Origin: Dictyophora rubrovolvata
Taxonomy: Eukaryota; Basidiomycota; Agaricomycetes; Phallales; Phallaceae
Direction of reading: 5' to 3'
Assembly: GCA_029959195.1 (NCBI GenBank)
Contig: CP114117.1
Location: 3,100,001 to 3,164,000 of the forward strand
DNA length: 64,000 nt
Under the pieces are notes generated by a model. The model did no database searches and was not told where the DNA came from. It saw nothing but the letters and a program-made list of their open reading frames with translations. Position numbers and translations under genes: made by a program. Positions 3,887-56,339 of the stretch are shown piece after piece (position 1 is the stretch's first letter; each line of letters starts with the position of its first letter).

Positions 3887-4618
3887 GAGCAGCTATGGGG
3901 TACGTCAATACCGTACAATATGTGTTTATACTGGCCTCATCGATAGCAAGAAATTTATTAACGGAATTGTACAACATCGCCGACAACAGACTTCACGACA
4001 GACCAAGCTAGCCATATGTATACAGCGCAGCCCGAGGACGTCCGCGTCCGTTATGGCATGAGCATAAGTTCATCTTCCTGTCCTGAGCGGCGTTTGCAGA
4101 TCCGCATGGTCTGAAGTACGGTACCGTGTTTAGTCAACACCTCAAGCCAAATGATTTCGGATTGCCCGTGACTCGAAAAAGGTTCATTTATTTCATTAAC
4201 TCGATTGAGCAGATAAATTAAAATCAGACATGACTCAGAATTGATTGACCCTACAAGAAGCATGAACCAATATTATAATTCCCTATAGCGCAGGCGCTGT
4301 GAGATTCCTTCTCGTGAGCTTCCTACTAAACGCGTAGGCTGGAGTCGAACCGAACGATGCACGTGGCCGTGTTTTGCAAATTCGCCCCGTCTATAAATAA
4401 CCAAAACTCATCCGCCTGTCTACGAGATTATGATATTTCAGTTCCTTGCAGCTATCATGAGCGTGTAGTTTCGAGACCAGGATTGATCCAGGAAAAGCTA
4501 TGTAATTCTCCATTTAGCGCTCTAGAGAACATCAAAACTTAGGTATATGTCACAAAATAAGATAACTCACACAAGAAACTCCAACAGACCAGAAAATATC
4601 AGGAACGTCTCATTTCAT

Positions 4619-22249: not shown

Positions 22250-23176
22250 GGTGGCTATGAGTATGGTATTGTATGATTTTCTGTGATGCTGGAGATGGTT
22301 CTGGAGCGACATACGTATCTTCTATAGTTCTGGGTCATCCACGATGGACTCGGTCTACACTCCTTTGTGTTTTTTTCTTCCTTTTGGTTTTTATGCGCTC
22401 ATTCCTTTCAATTGCCGGTGTGCTCCATCTATGTCCCTCCTTTGTCTCAAAATACCCTTCTCTCTCTTTTTATTTTCTTTTTTATTTCTCTCGTCTTATA
22501 TTTAGAATCAGTCGTATGCACTGTGGAATGTTCCGTGTCTGTATATTTGTGACAATTGTTGTTGTATTAGTGGATGTGTTCAAAAAGGATTCTGTAGAAT
22601 TATACTTATACCAATTATAAACTATTTAGATTGACTTTCTGCATAACATAATCATAAATTTAGATTGCCAGCCAGCTTTTTTCATTGCGGACGCCGGTAA
22701 GTTAATTGGGCTCTTCCCTAGAAAGACGCACGCCTTCATATCCTGTAATCTCAACCTTGCGAAACTTACAGCAAACTTTACGGCCACTGGAGGACTCCGG
22801 GGTGACTCAGACACCATTCCCCAGTCTGATCTTTTCCACGCACGCTCATGGGTTCGTTCTTGTTCCAAAGGATTATCGACATCATTCAATCTTTCTGATC
22901 GTTGGGATCTCGATGGAATATTATACCATTGACGTACGTATGGAGAAGCTCACCGGGAAGGTCATGCAGCGATGCGAACTCAAAGCTACTATTAAGCTTC
23001 AACTCAGGTTCCTGGTTCGCCGGAGATCAATAATATGTCAGAGATAGCTGCGCAGCAATAAGAATGCAAGTCAGGCTTGAGAACGTCTTGATGAAAACGG
23101 AGGTACTGCAAGAGGAGGCAAGGTAAAAAAAAAAGTGACATCAACTACCTTAACGAAAACAAGCCTGTCCGAACCC
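22250..23176. other. Intergenic, nothing recognised
   Basis: This holds the T-rich 3' flank of the previous gene and the left flank of the KDZ transposon. Short frames at 22626-22889 (minus) and 22706-23047 (plus) have no recognisable content. Confidence 0.5.
23169..23176 (+). repeat. Target site duplication, left (CCGAACCC)
   Basis: The same eight bases stand at 28408-28415, directly outside the other terminal inverted repeat. The bases beyond them differ on the two sides, so the duplication is exactly 8 bp. Confidence 0.85.
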
Positions 23177-23253
23177 GAGAAAAGGCCAGCGACTGGGAAA
23201 GTGTCCCATGGGACACTGTCTCATGAGACACTTAGGCGTCTAATTTGAAAGAC
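23177..23253 (+). repeat. KDZ left terminal inverted repeat
   Basis: The outer 21 bases match the other end at about 14 positions, finishing in a shared GCGACTGGG (23189-23197). Then come two 14-base perfect palindromes, TGTCCCATGGGACA (23202-23215) and TGTCTCATGAGACA (23217-23230), and a looser inner part with GGCGTC. The palindromes are probably transposase-binding or hairpin sites. Confidence 0.85.
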
Positions 23254-23377
23254 CGACGGCACCAGCCTCGGCTAAATTTTAACTCCGCTTTTCAAGCGTA
23301 ACCCATTATCCATAATACTAATTCTAACATCTACACATTCCACACATACATCAGCTATATGCATATTGATACTCAAA

Positions 23378-25862
23378 ATGAATGACTCTGAACTTCCAAT
23401 CCGTCATGTCAAATGTCTGAAATGTCCTGGTGAAATGGGAATATTTGAGGCATGTCTTGGTTCTTCCACCCCTGAAAATAGAGGAAGGATCATGCAACGG
23501 GTTTGTTATCTTTCTCCTTAACTTCTAAGAATTTTATATTTCTGCATTATTTCATGACATTAGTGCCGGAATCGTACCTGCAATTACACAGTATTTCACA
23601 GTGCTGCTTATCCGATTCATGAAGTCGCCCTTCAAATAGCGAATTATTACAATGAGACAATACCTGCATCAAATGCTGCAAAGAACACTTTGTTTTACCC
23701 ACCTGCACTTTTTCTGTCAGCTGATCATGCAACTACTTCAATTTTACGATGTATGGGTGCAACATGCCGTCGCGAACAAAAGCTCAACAGAGTTGCACAG
23801 AAGTGTTCCTTTCAGCGGTGCAGTTCTTGCTGTGATGAAGAGTTTCTGATTGCAAGAAGGGATAACAAGTTTCGAAAAGAGTGTGCTTTCCACCATAAAC
23901 AACCAATTCAAAGCACAGGACCTGTGAATATTCCTCTTCCAACTCTGTCTGTTCCATCTCTTTCTCTTAATACTCAACCACTTCCTGCGCCTACTGTTGA
24001 CATGACTTCAGTAATGACATCACAGCAGCTCAGCATTACAGCCACACCTTCCCAAACTTCAGCAATGACACAACCACTAAGCATTACAGCTGCACCTTCC
24101 CAAACTCTCGCCACAAGTATAGGTCCATTGTGGGCTTCAGCAGTAACATCGGCTAGAGCAAGATCACATATTAAACAGCAGATTAGTCAGGTCAAAGCAG
24201 AGAAACATGTCTTAATTGTTATTTGGAGCAAGGTATGTATATATCCCTTTCATTATAGTTCTAGTCATTCAATTACAGACTTTAGCCGGAATTGCCTCCT
24301 ATTCGCTTCAAGCATACAATAATGCAAAGTTATCCAAACTTCTCACTAGGCATGGCCATCCGACTACTTGAATATCTGAAGATAAATATTGATGACCTTA
24401 TTGAGACATGGATTCCCGAGACAAATGAATGGATCCTCCATGAACTTCACACTATGCAGCAAGTTGTAGACGGCCAACGAGTGTTATACCATATACTGCC
24501 AATCATCGGTTCACCATTCATTGAGAATTGGGAAAATTTGGATGATGAAATGGAACTACAGAAAAAAAACGAATAAGAATATTCACTCTTTAATCTCCCC
24601 AATAAAAGCAAATTCATCACCTTCATCCTCTTTTTCTATTTCTCAGCCTCTTGGTTCAAAGCGCAAACAAAAATCTCAATCAGCTGCAGGGAAAACGAAA
24701 AAAATCTGTATACGGCCCTTCCCTATACAAGATGATTCACGATACACTGGTTCAAAACGATGGCCAGCAGACTTTCATGTCTGTGAATTGAAAGATGGAT
24801 TCGAATTTGTCACACATGGTCGAAAACAAAATATCCCTCTTTCAGAGCTACTCAATAACTTTTTCGGACAGCAAATTCCTCGTTCTACATTTTATCGCAT
24901 CAGAAATATGTTTGATGATCTTGATGAAGTTCTCAAAGCTAGATTCATTGAATATGGTCGAACGTCTAAAGGCCTCTGGTCAAATCTGATCAAAAATAGT
25001 ACTTTCAAAGGTGATCAAGATAGTACAACTGACGGTAATACTTCTGATAGTATTTTGGATCTACTGGACCCCAAGACCCTTATTTTAGAGCGTTTCTGTC
25101 CACTATGCAATTCGCGATTAATGAATCTACCACCACATCTTGAGGACCATTTTCAACATCTGAAGGTGTCACTGAAATGCGACAATTACTTTCAGCTTCT
25201 ACAGAATTTTTGTGCTAGTCACACACTTCAGACGAAAGCTGATAAACAAATGCAGTGCCATCCCAATTGGAAAATACCGAAGAACATAGATTACGCACTC
25301 TTGCCAACTTGAGTCGAATCTTTTAAAACCCAACTACACAGGCAACTCTCTAATCCTATAGATAATCCGCTACTTCAACGGGTGAAGCACCAGTTCCGGC
25401 AAAGTGGGAATAGTATTATTTCATTTAGTGGTTTAACAGAGCGTATGAAGTTTGAACATTGCGGATAGTAAGTTATTTATTATATCTGTATTGTCGGATA
25501 AGCATAATAAATTATATAGCTATGGTGATAAGTCGGGTTTGATTATACACAAGACACTACTGAAACTCTTCCCTGCTCCCGAAAATCTAAATCTGTTATT
25601 GCATGAACAAATCAAACCTTTGAACTATCATCAATTCCTCACAGCAATTCTTGTTCCTTATACTGCGATATTATTGATTCAAGCTGATTCAGATGATTCA
25701 GAATTCTCATTTGATGATGCTTATACTACATGGCAAGATAGTGGTGAATGTGGCTCATTTTATAGTTACGCTACAGAAAGTGACATTAAAACGGAGGATC
25801 AAGAATTCACTATGACACAAAGTACTAATACAGATATCATTGTTATTTCTGATAATGATTAG
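23378..25862 (+). pseudogene. KDZ passenger gene: GRF-like zinc finger plus RTC4-like domain
   Basis: Exons 23378-23500, 23564-24232, 24286 onward to 25467, and 25520-25862. Residues 12-47 form a GRF-like zinc finger ('CLKCPGEMGIFEACLG', 'TPENRGRIMQRCRN'). A second Cys/His cluster spans about residues 104-150 ('CMGATC', 'KCSFQRCSSCCDEEF', 'ECAFHH'). A Pro/Ser/Thr linker and a helical part follow. The end has 'FCPLCNSRLMNLPPHLEDH', 'GYYGDKSGLIIHK' and 'TAILVPYTAILLIQADS', like the C-terminal domain of yeast Rtc4. The frame changes at an A8 run (24562-24569), and one in-frame TGA lies at 25310-25312, a likely CpG decay of CGA. This copy is therefore probably not translated in full. The role is unknown; zinc fingers and genome linkage suggest DNA or RNA binding in transposition. 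Confidence 0.7.
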
Positions 25863-25954
25863 ACCTTCATTCATTCATTCATTCCTTTCTTTTGAATTTG
25901 ATTTGTATTGACATGCGTTATCCTATTTGTATCATGTATGCAATAATACATCAC

Positions 25955-28270
25955 TTATAAAACTTCCTCATGAGGAATATTATATGGTGAATGTCTAGAG
26001 GCCTGTAATTCTTCGATGTGCACCTGATTATGCCGCATAATCACTTCATCTAAGAAAAAGTTATATCTATATGATCATAAGTTAAAAGCAATAAAGAACA
26101 AGGTATATGTATACCTTTCACAGCGCAACAACCGAGTCATTGAACGAAACCCTCCAATCCACGAATTCACCTGCTCGGCCGCTGATGAGTTAAATACCCA
26201 CTTTCCATTATTCATAAGCTGTGGCCAGCGGGCAGGATTGCATTCACGGCCACAAAATTCATCACTTTCCTTATGCTTGGTCTTGAAGTGGAAGACATCC
26301 ACTGGAAAGGCAACACCACTAAAGTAAGTGTCTCTCTCTGCGCGTAGCATTGCAACAAGGCGGCAATTGTTATCATGCCAGATGACATTAGGCAGAGACC
26401 GCTTCGTTGGAAAAAGGCCCTTGAGAAAACTCTATTTTAAATAATTAGTGTGAGAAAGAGAATGAAATATAAACACGTACGCGGACACTATTTGGACCCT
26501 CAGCACCATAGAAGGTAGCTCGACCAAGGATAATGCCACATGATGAAACACACAACTGCTCATTATGTGTACGACGGCGCCCGAAGCGTGCAGTAATTCT
26601 CCGAAGTCCACTTTCAGGTTTTTGTAGGCATTGGTTGGATTGGTCTGGCTCTTGCACCATCTCCTCCTCCTCCCCTTCCTCTCCTTCATCGCCGTATTCT
26701 TCATCAGCTTCAGTACTGACAAGTTGCATGCTTGGCTGCTTTGCAAGAGGTTGAGTGTGATGTGTTCGTCGCAACCGCTCTTTGAGCTGAAACATAGCTG
26801 ATCCACGTTCTTTGTGACGTAGCTCAAGGCTTCGATGGTGTTCGTTACTACAGGTCTTGTAGCCCACATCAACAGGAAAGCTACAGTTCTCAACAGCGCA
26901 TAACGTTTCCTGTAGGGTATGGATAGTGCAGTACCGATTCTTAGTTGTCGGTAATGGCTCTTTGCAGTCATGGACAGCGCAGCAAGGATGTCCGAGTGAC
27001 ACTCCATCCACAACCACTGACCTGTCAATGAAATTAGTGTGTCGACAAATAATTATTGTAGACAGGCATACCTGCAGACTGATATTGGAACACCATCCTT
27101 ATCAGTATAATGTTTGGTACATAAATCGCAGGCATGACCCCACAATGGTTGTCCCATTCCGGCTATCTCTGTGTTGCGCTCCTGGATTGTAGCATACCAG
27201 CGCACTCGTTGATCTTGAGCATTTTGTAAGACGGCGAGAGGTTTATTACGAGGTTGGGCCCATGATAGCAGAGAATGAATAGTAAAAGATTCCCAAACGA
27301 ACTTCGGTGTCAACTTGTAATTCAATGTGCTTGAGAAAGGAAGCGTGGAAGCCCAGTCCAGTTTAGAAGCCTCCATATTGTAAATCCGAGCACAGTTCTC
27401 AGCGGACATCCTGAAAGGTCTCAAAAGTGTGTACTAATAAATCCCAGAATAAATTATAACGCACCATGCGAATGCCATTTGGTCCAGGAACCGTTCACAG
27501 ACAGTTCTTTCGGCGAAATAGTGAGGAAGAACCTGAATGTATTTGTATCCAGCATCATCAAATTCACAAGAGTCATAGTATGTTCTAACATCGCTCTGGA
27601 CTGTATAATTGTGATAAAATCGCGTGTTACAGCCTACAAATTCATTCTTTTTAGCAACAAACCCACGATCCTGATATAACATACCACGGCAGTATAAAGA
27701 AGTAGTAAAAACAGGAATAGGGCCATTGACTGTGGTGAATAGTACAGCTTGGTGTGTCAATGGTTCTGTTAAGTCTTGAATCGGAAGATTTTCTTGCTTG
27801 CGAGCATGGAAGTTGTTGCGGCATCCCAGTCTGTTACAGTGTCGTGTAGGAGGGAAGAAATGTATTATTGCTGTAAACAATTTTTATACCATCCTAGAAC
27901 ACAATTAATTATTAAGCATACCTAATTCCAATGGCAACCCATACTCCAGGAAGAGGGGAAGCATGGTTGTGAAGTCAACTAGCAGTCCTTTTCCGGCCTT
28001 TACATCGCTGCTCCAGGCAAAATCTTTCAAAGCCATCCAACAAATAGTCATAATGTCTGACTCAAGACGAAGGCAGTTACACAGAAAAGCATGGACCTTT
28101 GACAGCAGGAACAGTGGTGGTTCATTGCAAGCAGTAAATGTTTGACTGTGCGAAAGGAGTGGCTTCATTTGTTGAACAAGGGATATAAACATAAAAAGAG
28201 TGTCGGCAGAGAAAGAGAATAGAACGGGGTACTGAGCACAACGTTCATATAGTGTATTTAATGTGAGCAT
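25955..28270 (-). CDS. KDZ transposase with CxC5 and CxC6 clusters
   Basis: Six exons (28270-27922, 27870-27465, 27410-27072, 27021-26481, 26431-26115, 26066-25955) give 687 aa without a break. CxC5-type part: 'PTRHCNRLGCRNN', then 'YCRGMLYQDRGF', 'FVGCNTRFYHNYTV' and 'YKYIQVLPHYFAERTVCE'. CxC6-type part (about residues 365-430): 'HPCCAVHDCKEPL', 'RYCTIH', 'CAVENCSFPV' and 'TCSNEHH'. The catalytic RNase H-like end has 'NVIWHDNNC', 'FPVDVFHFKTKHKESDEFC', 'NPARWPQLM' and 'FNSSAAEQVNSWIGGF', with candidate D, D and E. The last exon 'RYNFFLDEVIMRHNQVHIEEL' is typical of the family. It acts in the nucleus, cutting and moving the element at the terminal repeats. Intact by sequence. Confidence 0.9.
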
Positions 28271-28332
28271 GGTGTATTTGTTGGTTGTAATTGCACATAA
28301 CGTGCTGTGCAACGGCGCTGTCTATAGTCGGA

Positions 28333-28407
28333 GTCTGAACGGATTGACGCCCGTGTCCCATGGGACAATGTCTCATGAGACACTTCCCCAGTCGCGGTCG
28401 TTTCGTG
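28333..28407 (-). repeat. KDZ right terminal inverted repeat
   Basis: Inverted partner of 23177-23253. On the plus strand the two palindromes appear in the same left-to-right order as at the left end (28354-28367 and 28369-28382), so seen from the element ends their order is swapped. The outer sequence is CCCCAGTCGC followed by GGTCGTTTCGTG. Confidence 0.85.
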
Positions 28408-28415
28408 CCGAACCC
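28408..28415 (+). repeat. Target site duplication, right (CCGAACCC)
   Basis: Right-hand partner of the copy at 23169-23176; it marks the right end of the KDZ element at 28407. Confidence 0.85.
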
Positions 28416-28429
28416 ACCCACCCAGTTAC

Positions 28430-28545
28430 GTAATGGGCGCCTATTACCATAAATGGAATTTTTGTCACACATTGTCACATTAATCAACGAGACTGCTTGA
28501 TGGATTACATAATGGGCGTCGAATATCCCAAAATGGCAAGTACCT
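28430..28545 (+). repeat. Two degenerate copies of a ~77-bp unit
   Basis: 'CGTAATGGGCGCCTATTACC' near 28431 and 'CATAATGGGCGTCGAATATC' near 28509 begin two related stretches, each followed by AAATGG-type sequence. 'GGGCGCCTATT' occurs again near 28768. These look like debris of small repeats next to the KDZ insertion. Confidence 0.45.
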
Positions 28546-28659
28546 CCCATCTCAGTGAGGAGGAGAGAGCCCCGAAGAAGATGAGCCAAATGGGTGCAAA
28601 TACCTTTTTTTCTTCGCCATTGGGTGACAATAGCTTAATTTAATCATAATCACACCAGC

Positions 28660-29065
28660 CTCAATGTTGGGATATTAGCTATGTCTTTAACTTATTTTAG
28701 GGTTAAGATTAGGGTTAACGCTAACGATAACAAGGGGTCATGGACCCACCCACCCTAGTCGCGGTCTGGGCGCCTATTTTTTGCCTCCTCTTGAGGTACT
28801 GTTACACTTTGTTTAGTACTTTGCCTCAAATCACCATTTAGTCGTCCTTGGACTTATCGCGCTTCAAACTTATTAAAGGACACGTCTCCTTCCCTCCTCA
28901 GCCGTTATCCCGGAAATGAACGACATAGGCAGTAATAACATGATGCTTCTACCGCCACGGTAATGGCGATTCAAGAAGCATATGAGAGGTACATATATGT
29001 TTTATTCCTTGTTGTATACAATACACGCACTCAATGTTGGGATATTAGCTATGTCTTTAACTTAT
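28660..29065 (+). repeat. Exact 36-bp direct repeat flanking 334 bp
   Basis: The same 36 bases (starting CTCAATGTTGGGATATTAGC) stand at 28660-28695 and 29030-29065. The intervening segment starts with two telomere-like TTAGGG units. The second copy belongs to a longer block (about 28910-29140) that has a diverged relative at 42060-42290. Confidence 0.8.
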
Positions 29066-45055: not shown

Positions 45056-48000
45056 CCTCTCCCTACACCTTCTTCTATGCCGCCACCTCCATGACTCTCG
45101 ACTTCGAAGCGGAAGTCACTACCCTCTGAATATTGACTCGCAGCCACTGCCGGTACTCAGAAACTTGAAATCTCAGTAGAGCTCCAGAGTACTGACACAG
45201 GAGATTTGGTCACCAGCAAAGCCATGCTTGATACGGGTGCTAGTGGTATGTTCCTGGACCACGAGTTCGTTGAGAGACATCGACTCCCAACTGTCAAACT
45301 CCTGAAACCTATTCCTGTATTCAATGTTGATGGTACACCCAACCAGGCCGGTGCTATCACACATGTGGTCGATCTGGTTATGAGGTATCAGTCCCACTCT
45401 GAACGCGTACTATTTGCCGTTACCGCACTTGGAAAATATCCCGTATTACTGGGGCTACCTTGGTTCAAGGCCCACAACCCGGTGATTGACTATACTGCTG
45501 GAGAGGTAGAACTGACACATTGTAGTCCCCAATGTCGTTCCTGTGCACCCAGCTGGCCTTCAGGTCGTCACACTAAACATTCCTTTCGACAGATCTGAAT
45601 ATCTGAAGATGTGAAGCTTGACAACACCAAGGCTGAAGATCCTGACATGCCTGATCTGGCAGACATGGAGGATGAGCTCCAGCTTGAGGACGGCGATAGG
45701 CTCTTTGGTATTTCGATGGTTGACACTGGACCTGAGTTCCATCGCGTTGGCGCAACTGAGACCATTTCACAAAGACTTGCTCAAGCTCACGCCAAGAACT
45801 CAGATGCTCCAGCCCCCAAGGGTTTTCACGATATCGTGCCTGAACAATTCCATGACTTTGACGACATCTTTTCCAAAGAATCCTTTGATTCGCTACTGAT
45901 GTCAAAGAAATGGGATCACCCAATAGAACTTGTCTCTGGTTCAGAGCCCAAATCCAGTAAGATCTACCCGCTGTCACCGAAGGAACAGGCCGAGTTGGAT
46001 GCGTTTCTAGAAGAAAACCTCAAATCAGGACGGATCCAACTCTTGAAATCGCCAATGGCCTCACTGGTCTTCTTTATCAAAAAGAAGGATGGTTCCCTTT
46101 GTCTCATTCAGGATTACCGGGCTCTGAATGCGATGACGATCAAGAACCGTTATCCATTGCCCCTTATCCCGGAACTCATCAATAAGTTGCAGGGTGCCCA
46201 CTACTTCACGAAGCTCAATGTTCGATGGGGCTACAACAATGTGTGGATAAAGGAAGGCGACGAGTGGAAGGCCGCGTTTCATACTAATAGAGGCCTTTTC
46301 GAACCTTTGGTGATGTTTTTCAGCCTTACTAACAGTCCAGCCACCTTCCAGACAATGATGAATGAAATCTTTGAGGACATGATCTCAGAAGGTGTCGTTG
46401 CCATGTATATTGACGATATCCTCATCTATATGCAAGATTTGGAATAACATCATTGTATTACTCGACGTGTACTCAAATGGCTTTGTGAGCACCAGCTATA
46501 CCTTAAGGCGGAGAAATGCGAGTTCTGCAAGACCAAGATTGAGTACCTCGGGATGGTCATATCCGAGAATACAGTTGAAATGGACCCTGCGAAGGTCTCG
46601 GGTGTTAGGGACTGGCCTGTCCCGAGAAACATCACTGAAGTTCAATCCTTCCTCGGTTTTGCTAACTTCTATCGTCGTTTCATCAAAGACTTCTCTTGTA
46701 TTGCGCTTCCAATGTTTGGTCTGACCAAAAAGGACACCTTGTTCATCTGGTCCGACAATTGTCAGCAAGCCTTCGATGCACTCAAGCTCTCAATCACTTC
46801 AGCTCCCATCTTGCTCATCCCAGACCCTGCTAAACCCTACAAAGTTGAGGCAGACAGCTCCGACTTTGCTTCTGGTGCGGTTCTCTCGCAGTTATCGGAC
46901 GAGGACAGTAAGTGGCACCCAATCGTGTTCTTCTCGAAAGCCCTGAGCCCCGTAGAACGCAACTACGAGATTCATGACAAGGAAATGCTGGCAATAATTC
47001 AAGCCCTGGAAGAATGGCGACACTTTCTCGAAGGCGCAAGTCACCCCATTGACATTCGCACTGACCATAAGAACTTGGAGTACTTTATGACCACTCGCAA
47101 CCTCAATTGTCGACAAGCTCGGTGGTCAGTCTATCTTGCTCGATTTGTCTTCACCCTCCAGCACATCCTGGGTAAGTCAATGGGGAAGCCCGACAGCCTC
47201 TCTCGACATGCAGATCACAGATCGGGAAAGGATGACAACCAAGGGATCACCCTTATCCGACCCAAGATGTTTGCAATCAATGCCCTGCAAACATTCCATA
47301 TCTGAGGAGAAGAGGAAGACTTCCTACATCAGATTCGCAAGGCCAACCGAGAAGGCAAGCATGAGGATAGCGTCTCCAAAGCCGTCACTTCTCTTTGAGC
47401 TCTCAGTGGTCATTCGGTGCATACCAGTGAATGGTCCGAAGATCAGGATGTTCTCTACTACCGTGGTAAGATCTACGTTCCCAATGTCGAGGATCTACGA
47501 CGAGAAATTGTTGCACGTCATCATGATACCAAAGTCGGTGGTCACCCTGGTCGTTTCAAAACTCTGGAGCTGGTCTCTCAAACCTTTTGGTGGCCGGGTG
47601 TGTCTCGGTACATCCAATGATACGTCGAAGCCTGCGATCTCTGCTTGCGTACAAAAATAGCTCGCCACACACCCTTTGGCAAGTTGCGCCCCACCGAGAC
47701 ACCACACCGTCCTTGGGAGTTCATATCTGTCGACTTTATCGTTGAACTCCCAGAATCTAATGGGTATGATGCGATCCTCTCTGTGGTAGATTCGCTAACC
47801 AAACAAGTTCATTTCATTCCCATGTTCACCACTATTGATGCATCTGGTCTTGCGAGTCTATACCTGCAACATGTGTAGAAGCTGCATGGCCTCCCTGACA
47901 AGATCATTTCCAACAGGGGGCCACAGTTTGTGGCACGCTTCACGAAGGAACTCTCTCGACTCCTTGGCATTCGACTCGCCATGTCCACAGCCTACCATCC

Positions 48001-52676: not shown

Positions 52677-55600
52677 GGTTATGGGCCCCGCTAGCGATCC
52701 ATCCAGTTCTTCTAATAACCTGTGTCAAGCATTTAAGTTTCCGAAGTTGAATGGTCAGAACTACACCTTGTGGGCAGGCTATATGAAGTCAGCCCTTCAA
52801 GCTCAATACTTGTGGCTTGTAGTCTAAGGGACAGAGACATGTCCAAAAAAGCCTGCAAGCTCTCAGTCTGACAAAGTAACTGAGGCTGTCTGGAAAGCTG
52901 AAAAGAAGGAGTATCTGGAGTAGATGCAGAGAGATCAAGTGGCACAGGGTATAATGCTTGGAGCAGCAGATACATCACAGTGGCCGCATGTCAAGAGCAA
53001 AGCGATGTCGAAAGAAGTGTGGGATGAGTGAGAAGATCTATATGTTAAGAACTAGCAGAGGATCAACGTACATTACCATTTCGAGGAATTGTACACCCGA
53101 AAATATGTTAATGGAGAATCGATGCCCAAACATGTTGCCTCCATTCTTGATTTGGGTCAGAAGATCACAGCTGCTGGTGAAAACCTCCCAAACATCCACA
53201 TTGCTCGAGCACTGGTATTATCATTACCCAGAGAAGCCTCATGGGATCTAGTCAAGATCCAACTGTTCAGCCTGGATTCATTGAAGCTAACAATGGACTA
53301 TGTCGGGTCTGTGTTAATTGGCAAGTACAATCGACGGCAAAAGGAGAAGGCCAGTGAAACAGCTCTTCTCGCAATGAAAGACAAAAAGCGCAGGAAGAGG
53401 GGTGAAGGTTTTGGACCCAAACCTGATGATGAATGCCATTATTGTCATGAAAAGGGACATTGGGCCAGGCAGTGTCCAAAGAAGGACAAGAATAAAACCG
53501 GGACAAGCGAAACTATAGGCACAGCGAATCACACAGCAGTGGTACAGAACCTTGGTGTGTGTGAAGTCGGACAGCTGTTCATGGTCCAGGCCAGTCCGTT
53601 TTTGAAGTCTAATCTTGTTCTTGATACCGGAGCGACATCACACATGTTTCGTGATCAAAAATTCTTCAAGAACTACACGAATGTATCTGGTGAGTTCGTG
53701 TCAGTAGGAGATGCACGGAGTGTGCCAGTTATCGGCCAAGGATCCGTTACCTTCAAGAGTAGATTGCCAACAGGCTCTTATGAAGTGGTTTTGCATAAAG
53801 CATTGCATGTTCCATCATTAGCTGTCAACCTTGTCAGTCTTGGGTAATTACAGAAGAATGGAATCACTTACAGCAGCCGTGATGGTGGAATCAGTGTCTG
53901 GCAGGGTGGCGATGAGATTTTCAGAGCTTCACTAGCAGGTGGCACCGGGACATTGTACCACATTGACTGTTTGGAAGACCAGAATGAAGCTGCACTTGCT
54001 GCGACGAGTGGGAGCTTACGAGTCTGGCACCATTACTTAGGTCATCTTCACCTTGATGCGATCTGAGAGATGATGTGCAAAGACATGGTGAAAGGTCTGC
54101 AGATTTCAGCAATGAATGAGTTTGATCATGTGTGCAAAGGATGTGTGACTGGAAAGTCTCACCGATTGCCATTCCCGAAAGCAAGTGATACCGAGCATGT
54201 CAAGATGGATTTAGTCATGGTTGATCTGACTGGTCCATTCCATGTCGAAACTTGGTCCAGGATGAGATTCGCGCTTCTAGTAGTGGAAGCAGCTACAAGA
54301 TTCCCGGTCGGTCGATTGCTACGCATGAAGGACGAAGCGATACAAGCCCTACAAGAAATAATCACCATGCTGGAGCAGCAATCTGGCATGAGATTGAAAC
54401 ATTTGCGGTGTGATAATGGTCAAGAGCTGATCAATGATGAGCTTAATGAATTCTGCAAGAAGAATGGCATCATTACTGAGATGACTGTATCTTATACACC
54501 GGAACAAAATGACATCGTTGAGCATGTGATTGCTGTTATATTTGCCATGGTTCAGTGCATGTTGCATTCTGCGAAAATGGACCTGCGCTACTGGGGTAAA
54601 GCATTCAGTTATGCTGTGCACATCTGAAGCTGCACGTATATCTCGAAGTTGAAGGATAAGGTGCCGTTTGAGGCATGGTACAACTGGAAGCCTGACATTT
54701 CGCATATCCGCATGTTTGGTTCTGTTGCATACGTCAATATTCCTAAGAAACTCCATAGGGGAAAGCTGGAGCACACCTCTACCAAGTGCCGGTTGCTTGG
54801 TTGGTGGGCCGATGAAATGAAAGGCTACCGACTTGAGGCAGTGGGAGAGGACAGCCATGACATCATCACAGCTCGAGACATGACATTTGCTGAAGATGAT
54901 AGCCCAGGTGATCTAGCCATCATAGAGACGAGAGGCAGACCATCGACCCAGGCCGAATTAGATGTGCTGTTCCCAGACAAGGATGCTGAGAGTGAAGAAA
55001 ATGGTGGTGGAAATGTGGAAGTGCCTGTAGAGAGGCAAGCCGAGGTGGAACCCCCAGAGGTGAAGACCCGTCAATCACGCAGGAGTAGATGGGCAAACAT
55101 ACCACAATGAGACCATCCACAAAGAATAAGAAGACCACCGGCTCCACCTGGAGAAGCTGCAACTGAAGAAGAAATAGATGTGGCTTCTGAAGTAACACCT
55201 GATCAGCATCATGCTTTCCTGACTGTTGAAGGCGACCCAGAAACTTACCAAGAAGTGACTGAGTCACCTTACTCAAAGCAGTGGGAGGAGGCAATTTAAG
55301 TTGAATACAAAATGCTGAAGTCAACAGGAACCTTCAAGTGGGTTAAAAAGGTTCTGGAAGGTCAAAAAGCCATAGGTGGCCGCATAGTATTCAAAACGGC
55401 AATGGTGAAGTGACAAAGCACAAAGCAAGAATTGTTGCCAAGGGCTTCTTGCAGGTACCTGGTCTTGATTTCTCAGAAATGTTCTCCTCCATCGCAAAAT
55501 TCACGATCCTTCATGTTTTGTTGTCAATTGTTGCACATGAAGACTTGGAGCTGCATCAAGTGGACATTGTTAGCACCTATCTTCAAGGTGAACTGGATGA

Positions 55601-56339
55601 AGAAATTTATATGAATGTACCTGATGGAGTGAAGGAAGAGGGAAGAGAAGACTGGTCATGGCGACTTAAAAAGGCGTTGTATGGATTGAAACAAGCCGGA
55701 CGCCAATGGAAGCAGAAGCTTGATGGAATACTCTCAGAGCTTAAATTTGAAAAAAGCGCTGCGGATGACTGCCTGTATATTTTGAAGGAAAATGGGGAAG
55801 ACGGCGTTGGTTTAATGGTCCTTGTTTATGTTGATGACATGGCCATTGCCGGAAAATCAACCTCAAAAATCAAGCAATTCAAGACGGACTTGTGTGCCCA
55901 TCTTGACATCACAGACATGGGAGAACTAAAATATATTTTAGGCCTCCAGGTCGAAAGAGATAGAGAAAAACATACTATCTCGCTGAACCAAATGGCCTAT
56001 ATCCATAAGATGCTCAAATGTTTCAGCATGTCAGACTGTAACCCTGTCAGTATGCCGCTAACTGTTAAACACAACCTATGCAAATCTGAATATCCATTGA
56101 CGGATGAGGAATGCAAAGCTTACCTTGAATATGCCGGTAACATCAAGTTCCTTGAGTTGGTCAGCTCCTTGTTGTTTGTAACACAGACCTGACCGGATAT
56201 CCAGTTTGCAGTCGGTTTGGTCTCTCAGTTCAGCGGTAACCCTGGAAAAATACATTTAGAAGCTGCAAAAAGGATTTTGAGGTATCTGAAAGGGACCGCT
56301 GAATTTAGACTAACCTTTGGATCCAACGCTGGGCCCACT

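Follow-up and report, generated by a model that had tools for sequence, protein, structure and literature searches.

A recently mobile CxC5/CxC6-type DNA transposon with an RTC4-domain gene, and a palindromic motif beside its insertion sites

The DNA analysed here (hereafter the window) is a stretch of 64,000 nucleotides, C1:3100001-3164000 of a 28.24-Mb, 11-contig genome whose fungal origin we infer from the domain families that it encodes and from its small introns. At 23177-28407 the window holds a CxC5/CxC6-type DNA transposon with two convergent genes, one for a putative transposase and the other for a cysteine-rich protein with an RTC4 domain. The features of this locus are listed below, in window positions; aa stands for amino acids, and L010 is a second full-length copy of the element, on contig C5.

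23177-28407, no strand: complete CxC5/CxC6-type DNA transposon, 5231 bp, with three full-length and four internally deleted copies that have identical ends
23169-23176, no strand: left target-site duplication CCGAACCC, directly abutting 23177
28408-28415, no strand: right target-site duplication CCGAACCC, directly abutting 28407
23177-23231, plus strand: left terminal inverted repeat, including the double-palindrome block 23201-23233
28353-28407, minus strand: right terminal inverted repeat, including the block 28353-28385
25955-28270, minus strand: predicted transposase gene, 687 aa; splice model with exons 28270-27922, 27870-27465, 27410-27072, 27021-26481, 26431-26115 and 26066-25955
27374-27871, minus strand: CxC5 domain, residues 117-264 (Pfam E=1.5e-25)
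26823-27014, minus strand: CxC6 domain, residues 368-431 (Pfam E=3.1e-23), starting beside D370
23378-25862, plus strand: second gene, for a cysteine-rich RTC4-domain protein, broken here; exons 23378-23500, 23564-24232, 24286-25467 and 25520-25862, positions transferred from the full-length copy L009
25521-25757, plus strand: RTC4-like domain (PF14474), the part seen in the genome search
24562, plus strand: length change in an A-run causing a frameshift, in the window copy only, both other full copies differing here; possibly a homopolymer assembly error
25310-25312, plus strand: premature stop TGA, common to L010, at a CpG-transition site
24021-24106, plus strand: 48-bp repeat unit in two copies; L010 has one more
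28426-28433, no strand: TTACGTAA, proposed target-recognition motif, whose start is 19 bp from the edge of the element

The octamer CCGAACCC lies exactly at both edges of the element, so that the perfect 8-bp duplications of the original prediction are found as described. The inverted repeats at the element ends have 51-nt arms that are 82% complementary, and their outermost bases are unequal, GAG at the left end versus CAC at the right end read inwards. Their inner 33-bp block is made of two palindromes, and the left and right blocks agree at 32/33 positions in direct and at 26/33 in inverted orientation. This block is the only direct repeat common to both ends, and there is no long terminal repeat (LTR).

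A DNA search of the genome with the element returned 20 matches. Full-length copies are three in number, namely the window copy, L009 (C6) and L010 (C5), and four more have kept both ends around a large internal deletion (L011, 1540 bp; L012 and L013, 1498 bp each; L016, 464 bp). The ends coincide in all seven copies that have both of them, which agrees with the boundaries first proposed, and each of the seven is flanked by a perfect 8-bp duplication that differs from site to site (CCGAACCC, CATTTCCT, GATTTGGT, ACTTCTGT, GTTGTATG, ATTGGCAC and CATGCCAG). The very high identity of the three full copies would also be expected of segmental duplications or assembly copies, but the flanks differ at every site and the duplication is each copy's own in 7/7 cases, and we consider that explanation exceedingly improbable. 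L012 and L013 share one deletion and yet occupy separate sites with different duplications, which indicates that the deleted form itself moved. Likewise, the same premature stop is found in the window copy and in L010, which occupy different sites, so that a stop-bearing copy has moved.

An eighth near-identical copy, L014, has the left end only. There (L014/L056; C4, ~542000-545110) the element breaks off at its position 3959, and its own left flank reappears in inverted form ~60 bp further on; this may be a rearranged or aborted transposition product, or an insertion into an inverted repeat. L015, L017, L018, L019/L020 (which have one flank in common) and L021 are older relatives. When the whole genome was searched for the terminal-sequence pattern, 18 places were found, nine per strand, against 0 for the reversed control. 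Sixteen of them are perfect, 15 in the eight near-identical copies and one in L018, and the two at L019/L020 have two mismatches.

The window insertion lies inside a repeat, and its joined flanks match four other places, the junction being spanned at two of them. At L049, a paralogous site in the same genome, the sequence runs uninterrupted through the junction with one CCGAACCC; at L050, also paralogous, 14 bp are missing there, hence also CCGAACCC, and this site neither supports nor refutes the insertion. The empty site with a single octamer, proposed earlier as a check, was thus obtained at the first paralogous site and not at the second. For the other six insertion sites, no junction-spanning match was found elsewhere in the genome. 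The host repeat itself is MITE-like (miniature inverted-repeat transposable element), ~450 bp long with GAGGAGGCAA-type ends, and occupies window positions 23099-23176 and 28416-28793; parts of it match L049, L050, L051 and L052, on C9, C4 (two) and C6. Because its ends are defined and flanked by 8-bp duplications, its full copies are nearly identical, internally deleted copies exist as well, and a paralogous site without the element has a single octamer, 23177-28407 is a real, recently mobile cut-and-paste DNA transposon.

The divergence between full copies is small. Between the window copy and L010 there is a single substitution, besides a difference of one 48-bp repeat unit and of one base in an A-run; L009 differs from the window copy at that A-run base and by 12 substitutions. 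Among the 13 distinct substitutions found in the three full copies, 10 are CpG transitions, and all 10 fall within element positions 725-2741. The half of the element up to position 2760 has 57 CpGs, while the transposase half, with 75 CpGs, shows zero CpG transitions between full copies; for the window-L009 pair, this one-sidedness gave p=6e-4 by Fisher's test. In the same pair, 9/12 substitutions are at CpG, versus 5.7% of bases (p=1e-9). The CpG changes are best read as decay of methylated cytosines, the transposase half having been spared by selection or by lower methylation. A TpCpG context is the signature of processes of the repeat-induced point mutation (RIP) type. It was considered and set aside, 3/9 window-L009 CpG sites being TCG; plain CpG decay is preferred.

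The six-exon minus-strand gene is open once spliced and encodes the full 687-aa protein announced by the original prediction, although other splice penalties lead to a different 3' end and 705 aa, so that the C-terminus depends on the model. The protein is identical in L010 and has two substitutions in L009. It matches both CxC5 (90.1 bits, curated cut-off 26.9) and CxC6 (82.2 bits, cut-off 27.5), and a Pfam scan up to E=10 found nothing else in it. The hAT superfamily is marked by hAT dimerisation or BED domains; neither is among the Pfam matches up to E=10, and membership in hAT is not supported.

Inspection by eye of the region from CxC6 onwards places D370 at the beginning of CxC6; further on come D565, within WHDNNC, the pattern VDVFHF....H....C, and E631. 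A second CxC6 element, L041 (C2:1270500-1280400), contains stops and is 29% identical over the catalytic region; it keeps D..C, VD.FH, FC...CNP and AEQ, and with them the contexts of D565 and E631, while D370 was not traced in it. This suggests that D370, D565 and E631, proposed from their spacing, are the likely catalytic acids of a DDE core in which CxC6 is inserted after the first acid, and that the CxC5/CxC6 protein would be the element's own DDE-type transposase. The KDZ remnants of the same genome have a loosely similar order, D..C, FH..H, CE.

Several results weigh against this part of the interpretation. The 687-aa protein did not match the Pfam KDZ catalytic model PF18758 (hmmscan up to E=10, a program whose filters discard most matches above about E 0.1), nor any other DDE-domain model in Pfam, and the triad was assigned by eye. 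With hhalign, a two-row alignment of the D565-E631 region scored 12.0 against two own-genome KDZ remnants, the two C9 loci being left out (60 shuffles: mean 11.8, maximum 20.9), and 11.8 with three, the longer C9 match included, a value reached by 41/100 shuffles; profile comparison thus gave no support to KDZ homology, the scores lying inside the shuffled range. A search of PDB sequences with the catalytic region gave a best E of 1.2, which is chance level. When the genome itself was searched with PF18758, six matches were found, none of them in the element. These KDZ-domain matches include L044-L046 (C5, C9, C4) and L047 (C10); 3/6 have internal stops, and one lies at most 0.6 kb from the end of contig C4.

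Traits associated with KDZ elements are nevertheless present: cysteine-cluster domains (CxC5 and CxC6), 8-bp duplications in 7/7 copies, and terminal inverted repeats. Of the KDZ assignment first made for this locus, a young class II transposon with intact ends and a CxC5/CxC6 protein stands, and strict KDZ membership is unsupported. Since the 687-aa protein fails the Pfam KDZ model, KDZ denotes here an association, and we class the element among DNA transposons of the CxC5/CxC6 type, linked with KDZ elements but not demonstrably one of them.

A comparable protein of 660-739 aa is encoded by the 6.8-kb, multi-copy insert found in the poMSH4 gene of Pleurotus ostreatus (PMC7641404), which like the present element is a multi-copy unit with a CxC5/CxC6 protein. 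Its authors linked it to Copia, and the main text of their paper uses none of the terms "inverted repeat", "duplication" and "TSD" (PMC7641404), whereas for the element described here we define the ends, the duplications, a second gene and a set of deletion derivatives. From their work comes an alternative for the enzyme, namely that the CxC5/CxC6 protein is only accessory and that the enzyme is provided by another element; the Pleurotus paper suggested that a Copia retrotransposon was involved. In that study, CxC5/CxC6 frames had no KDZ-type transposon within the distance expected, intact KDZ elements had CxC2 and never CxC5/CxC6 in front of them, and Copia was very often associated with CxC5/CxC6 regions (PMC7641404); the absence of a PF18758 match and a Copia-type frame ~25 kb away in the window point the same way. 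In our element, however, the protein is encoded within a unit that has inverted repeats and 8-bp duplications, what both ends share is a direct repeat of 33 bp and not an LTR, Pfam finds no other enzyme in the encoded proteins, and the pattern D..C..D.FH..H..C..E, C-terminal to CxC6, is common to the 29%-identical remnant on another contig. We therefore hold an accessory role to be improbable, and argue for the simpler reading in which the protein mobilises its own element.

Two retroelement regions were seen elsewhere in the window. Positions 53056-56189, ~25 kb from the element, contain a frame with a copia-type gag domain (below cut-off) and Pol_BBD, and a separate RVT_2 frame; at 45599-47302, reverse transcriptase and RNase H domains are encoded by two abutting open frames.

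Described KDZ families offer further points of comparison. In Cryptococcus, KDZ1 makes 8-bp duplications and KDZ2 and KDZ3 make duplications of 4-8 bp (PMC12810828). These elements resemble ours in having inverted repeats, duplications and a cysteine-cluster domain in the transposase; they differ in their size (9-11 kb), their inverted repeats of 139-241 bp and their CxC1 and recognised KDZ domains (PMC12810828). Duplications of 8 bp are also made by Zisupton and a Dileera family, while Kyakuja makes 7 bp and has no inverted repeats; 8 bp is usual in hAT too (PMC12730594). In fungi, a passenger gene (TET/JBP) can form part of KDZ elements (PMC12730594). In contrast to these three families, the passenger found here is RTC4-like and the KDZ domain model is unmatched. 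The word "RTC4" is absent from the text of PMC12810828 and of PMC12730594, and a fungal co-option screen (PMC10799480) contains none of the terms KDZ, CxC and RTC4. Inverted-repeat motifs of KDZ elements have been reported in Marasmius oreades (PMC8290104).

The original prediction missed the second gene and the lesions in it, and likewise the internally deleted copies and the target motif presented below. The element had been called complete, which holds for its ends and its transposase gene; the gene at 23378-25862 (plus strand) is broken by the frameshift and the stop. In L009 the frame is open, with four exons and 771 aa, and the encoded protein, cysteine-rich in its N-terminal part, matches Pfam RTC4 with E=1.9e-9 and 38.2 bits (curated cut-off 23.7). 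The last exon of the window copy itself still gives E=5e-6 and 27.1 bits (cut-off 23.7). L010 has the premature stop and no frameshift; an alternative splice could skip the stop. In the genome, where search counts are lower bounds, the sole other RTC4 match found is on C8, and as it shows only 34% identity over ~60 residues, the second gene is not a fresh capture of that gene.

Other searches with the second gene added little. Against PDB sequences, the RTC4 protein matched a SAKe6AR chain at 9.6e-7, no stretch passing alone, and another chain at 0.5; neither was accepted as a relative. An NCBIfam scan of three pieces of the gene gave nothing, and Pfam found no other enzyme in either encoded protein. 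A GRF-like zinc finger, suspected by eye at the start of the protein from the known motif, is not claimed, since Pfam lists none up to E=10. In PMC9370660 and PMC5948300, RTC4 and transposons are both mentioned and left unlinked in the parts consulted, and none of the further papers listed contains the term "RTC4-like"; such absence from the literature is weak evidence.

L012 and L013 moved even though they lack most of both genes. As stop-bearing and deleted copies have moved, either both proteins can be provided in trans or the element can move without the RTC4 protein; probably, the latter is an accessory factor supplied in trans.

We come now to the sites of insertion. The motif TTACGTAA was first noticed by eye in the joined flanks of the copies, and its distance is counted from the element edge, the duplication included. 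It starts at 19 in the right flank of the window copy and at 19 in the left flank of L012. In L009, TTATGTAA is at 17 in the left flank, with TTACGTAA in addition at 31; L010 has TTACATAA at 17 and L016 has TTATGTAA at 18, both in the right flank. TTATGTAA and TTACATAA are what CpG decay of TTACGTAA produces, and TTACGTAA or a CpG-transition form of it is present 17-19 bp from the edge at 5/7 verified sites. With one mismatch allowed, TTACGTAA occurs within 45 bp at 7/7 sites.

Chance values of 7e-17 and 9e-14 were computed for the motif after it had been seen, and should not be read literally; a test on random sets and the relative L017 are fairer. In an unbiased count of 8-mers, exact TTACGTAA was the commonest, within ~40 bp at 4/7 sites, and no 8-mer reached four in 300 random sets. 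The 7/7 obtained with one mismatch was equalled by some 8-mer in 1/300 random sets of seven genomic stretches; the overlapping words ATTACGTA and TACGTAAT likewise reach 7/7 with one mismatch. TTACGTAA is present in 0.055% of random stretches of the tested size, and the 28.24 Mb contain 490 TTACGTAA sites versus 780 for the reversed word. L017, which is 76% identical to the element and was inspected after the motif had been noticed, has TTACGTAA at exactly +19, and is the one case among five further flanks (1/5; L021, whose end is not preserved, was left out).

These data also contain points that speak against target recognition. The motif stands at 29 in the right flank of L013, and the right flank of L011 has only TGACGTAA, at 38. 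No motif starts within 60 bp in the flanks of L014, L015, L018 and L019/L020 (one side each; the end of L018 is damaged). The background of the motif tests was random genome sequence and not promoters, and the comparison was confined to the element's own genome.

TTACGTAA is the Yap (yeast AP-1) response element with adjacent half-sites, and the DNA in the Pap1 structure 1GD2 includes it (PMC3111461). As a known yeast promoter element (PMC3111461), it might be linked to the insertions only indirectly, if the transposon enters open promoter DNA rich in AP-1-type sites and makes no contact with the motif. Two of the six sites scanned (the window copy and L009-L013) would fit: at L012 and L011, the longest open frame on one side starts 159 and 169 bp, respectively, from the element and reads away from it; in the first 150 aa of these frames, Pfam finds a fasciclin domain beside L011 and nothing beside L012. 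Promoter bias alone, however, predicts neither the 17-19 bp spacing at 5/7 sites nor the exact +19 at L017, the genome holds just 490 sites, and the window insertion is within a repeat. We regard this indirect link as unlikely.

A mechanism can be proposed on these grounds. The CxC5/CxC6 transposase would act in trans, because copies without most of the transposase gene, or with a broken second gene, have duplications of their own; the RTC4 protein, also supplied in trans, may serve as an accessory factor. The integration complex would favour sites adjoining TTACGTAA, the start of the motif usually falling 17-19 bp from the joined edge. Since TTACGTAA equals the yeast AP-1 (Yap/Pap1) response element, we propose that the complex is tethered by a host protein of the basic leucine zipper (bZIP) type, or by a DNA-binding part of the transposase or of the RTC4 protein that mimics one.

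Atf1 is a bZIP factor. In S. pombe, it interacts with the integrase of Tf1 and, in plasmid targets, is able to steer integration towards promoters that contain its binding sites (PMC7175516). That system is an LTR retrotransposon and was established by experiment, whereas ours is a DNA transposon whose targeting is deduced from flanks. The transposons of multicopy small-RNA genes are reportedly named Dada. Targeting of such genes by DNA transposons has been described (PMC3706591), and shares with the present case a eukaryotic DNA transposon with target specificity; here, the flanks are unrelated and the target is a short palindrome at a preferred distance. Among the literature matches listed, no title or abstract opening mentions TTACGTAA-guided insertion or a target motif of KDZ elements.

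For the tethering step only, the main rival to a host bZIP protein is direct recognition of TTACGTAA by the element's own proteins, either the transposase, through its cysteine clusters, or the RTC4 protein. A preferred spacing would fit such recognition, the cysteine clusters of both proteins could bind DNA, and a palindromic site is what a dimer would be expected to choose. On the other hand, the word equals a yeast bZIP site, Tf1 integrase with Atf1 offers a fungal precedent (PMC7175516), and a copy with a stop in the RTC4 gene still moved, though the protein might have come from another copy. Own-protein binding is a real contender for this step, at clearly less than even odds.

Taken as a whole, the best explanation is a mobile cut-and-paste transposon served in trans by its own transposase, with TTACGTAA-guided integration through a bZIP-type tether, to which we give a probability of about 0.77. 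A wider proposal is that CxC5/CxC6 elements form a transposon lineage of their own, with a catalytic core missed by current models, an RTC4-type accessory gene, and insertion sites ~17-19 bp from a palindromic AP-1/Yap element reached via a host bZIP protein; this we offer tentatively, the odds being somewhat against it in that full form.

Exact ends and a target duplication are now fixed for one CxC5/CxC6 element, of a class whose mover was left open by the study that found a CxC5/CxC6 insert in a commercially used sporeless oyster mushroom (PMC7641404). An RTC4-domain gene is added to the cargo of a fungal DNA transposon. RTC4 proteins number 45 versus 15 in two Puccinia species (PMC9370660), and a link with transposons is, speculatively, another reading of such large families. 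If CxC5/CxC6 elements are indeed a lineage of their own with an RTC4 accessory gene, the multicopy RTC4 genes of some fungi would be transposon cargo rather than expansions of host genes. If the bZIP tether is correct, the element would be the DNA-transposon counterpart of Tf1/Atf1, and if the TTACGTAA spacing holds in new insertions, it would serve as a compact natural model for studying how sequence guides the integration of a eukaryotic DNA transposon.

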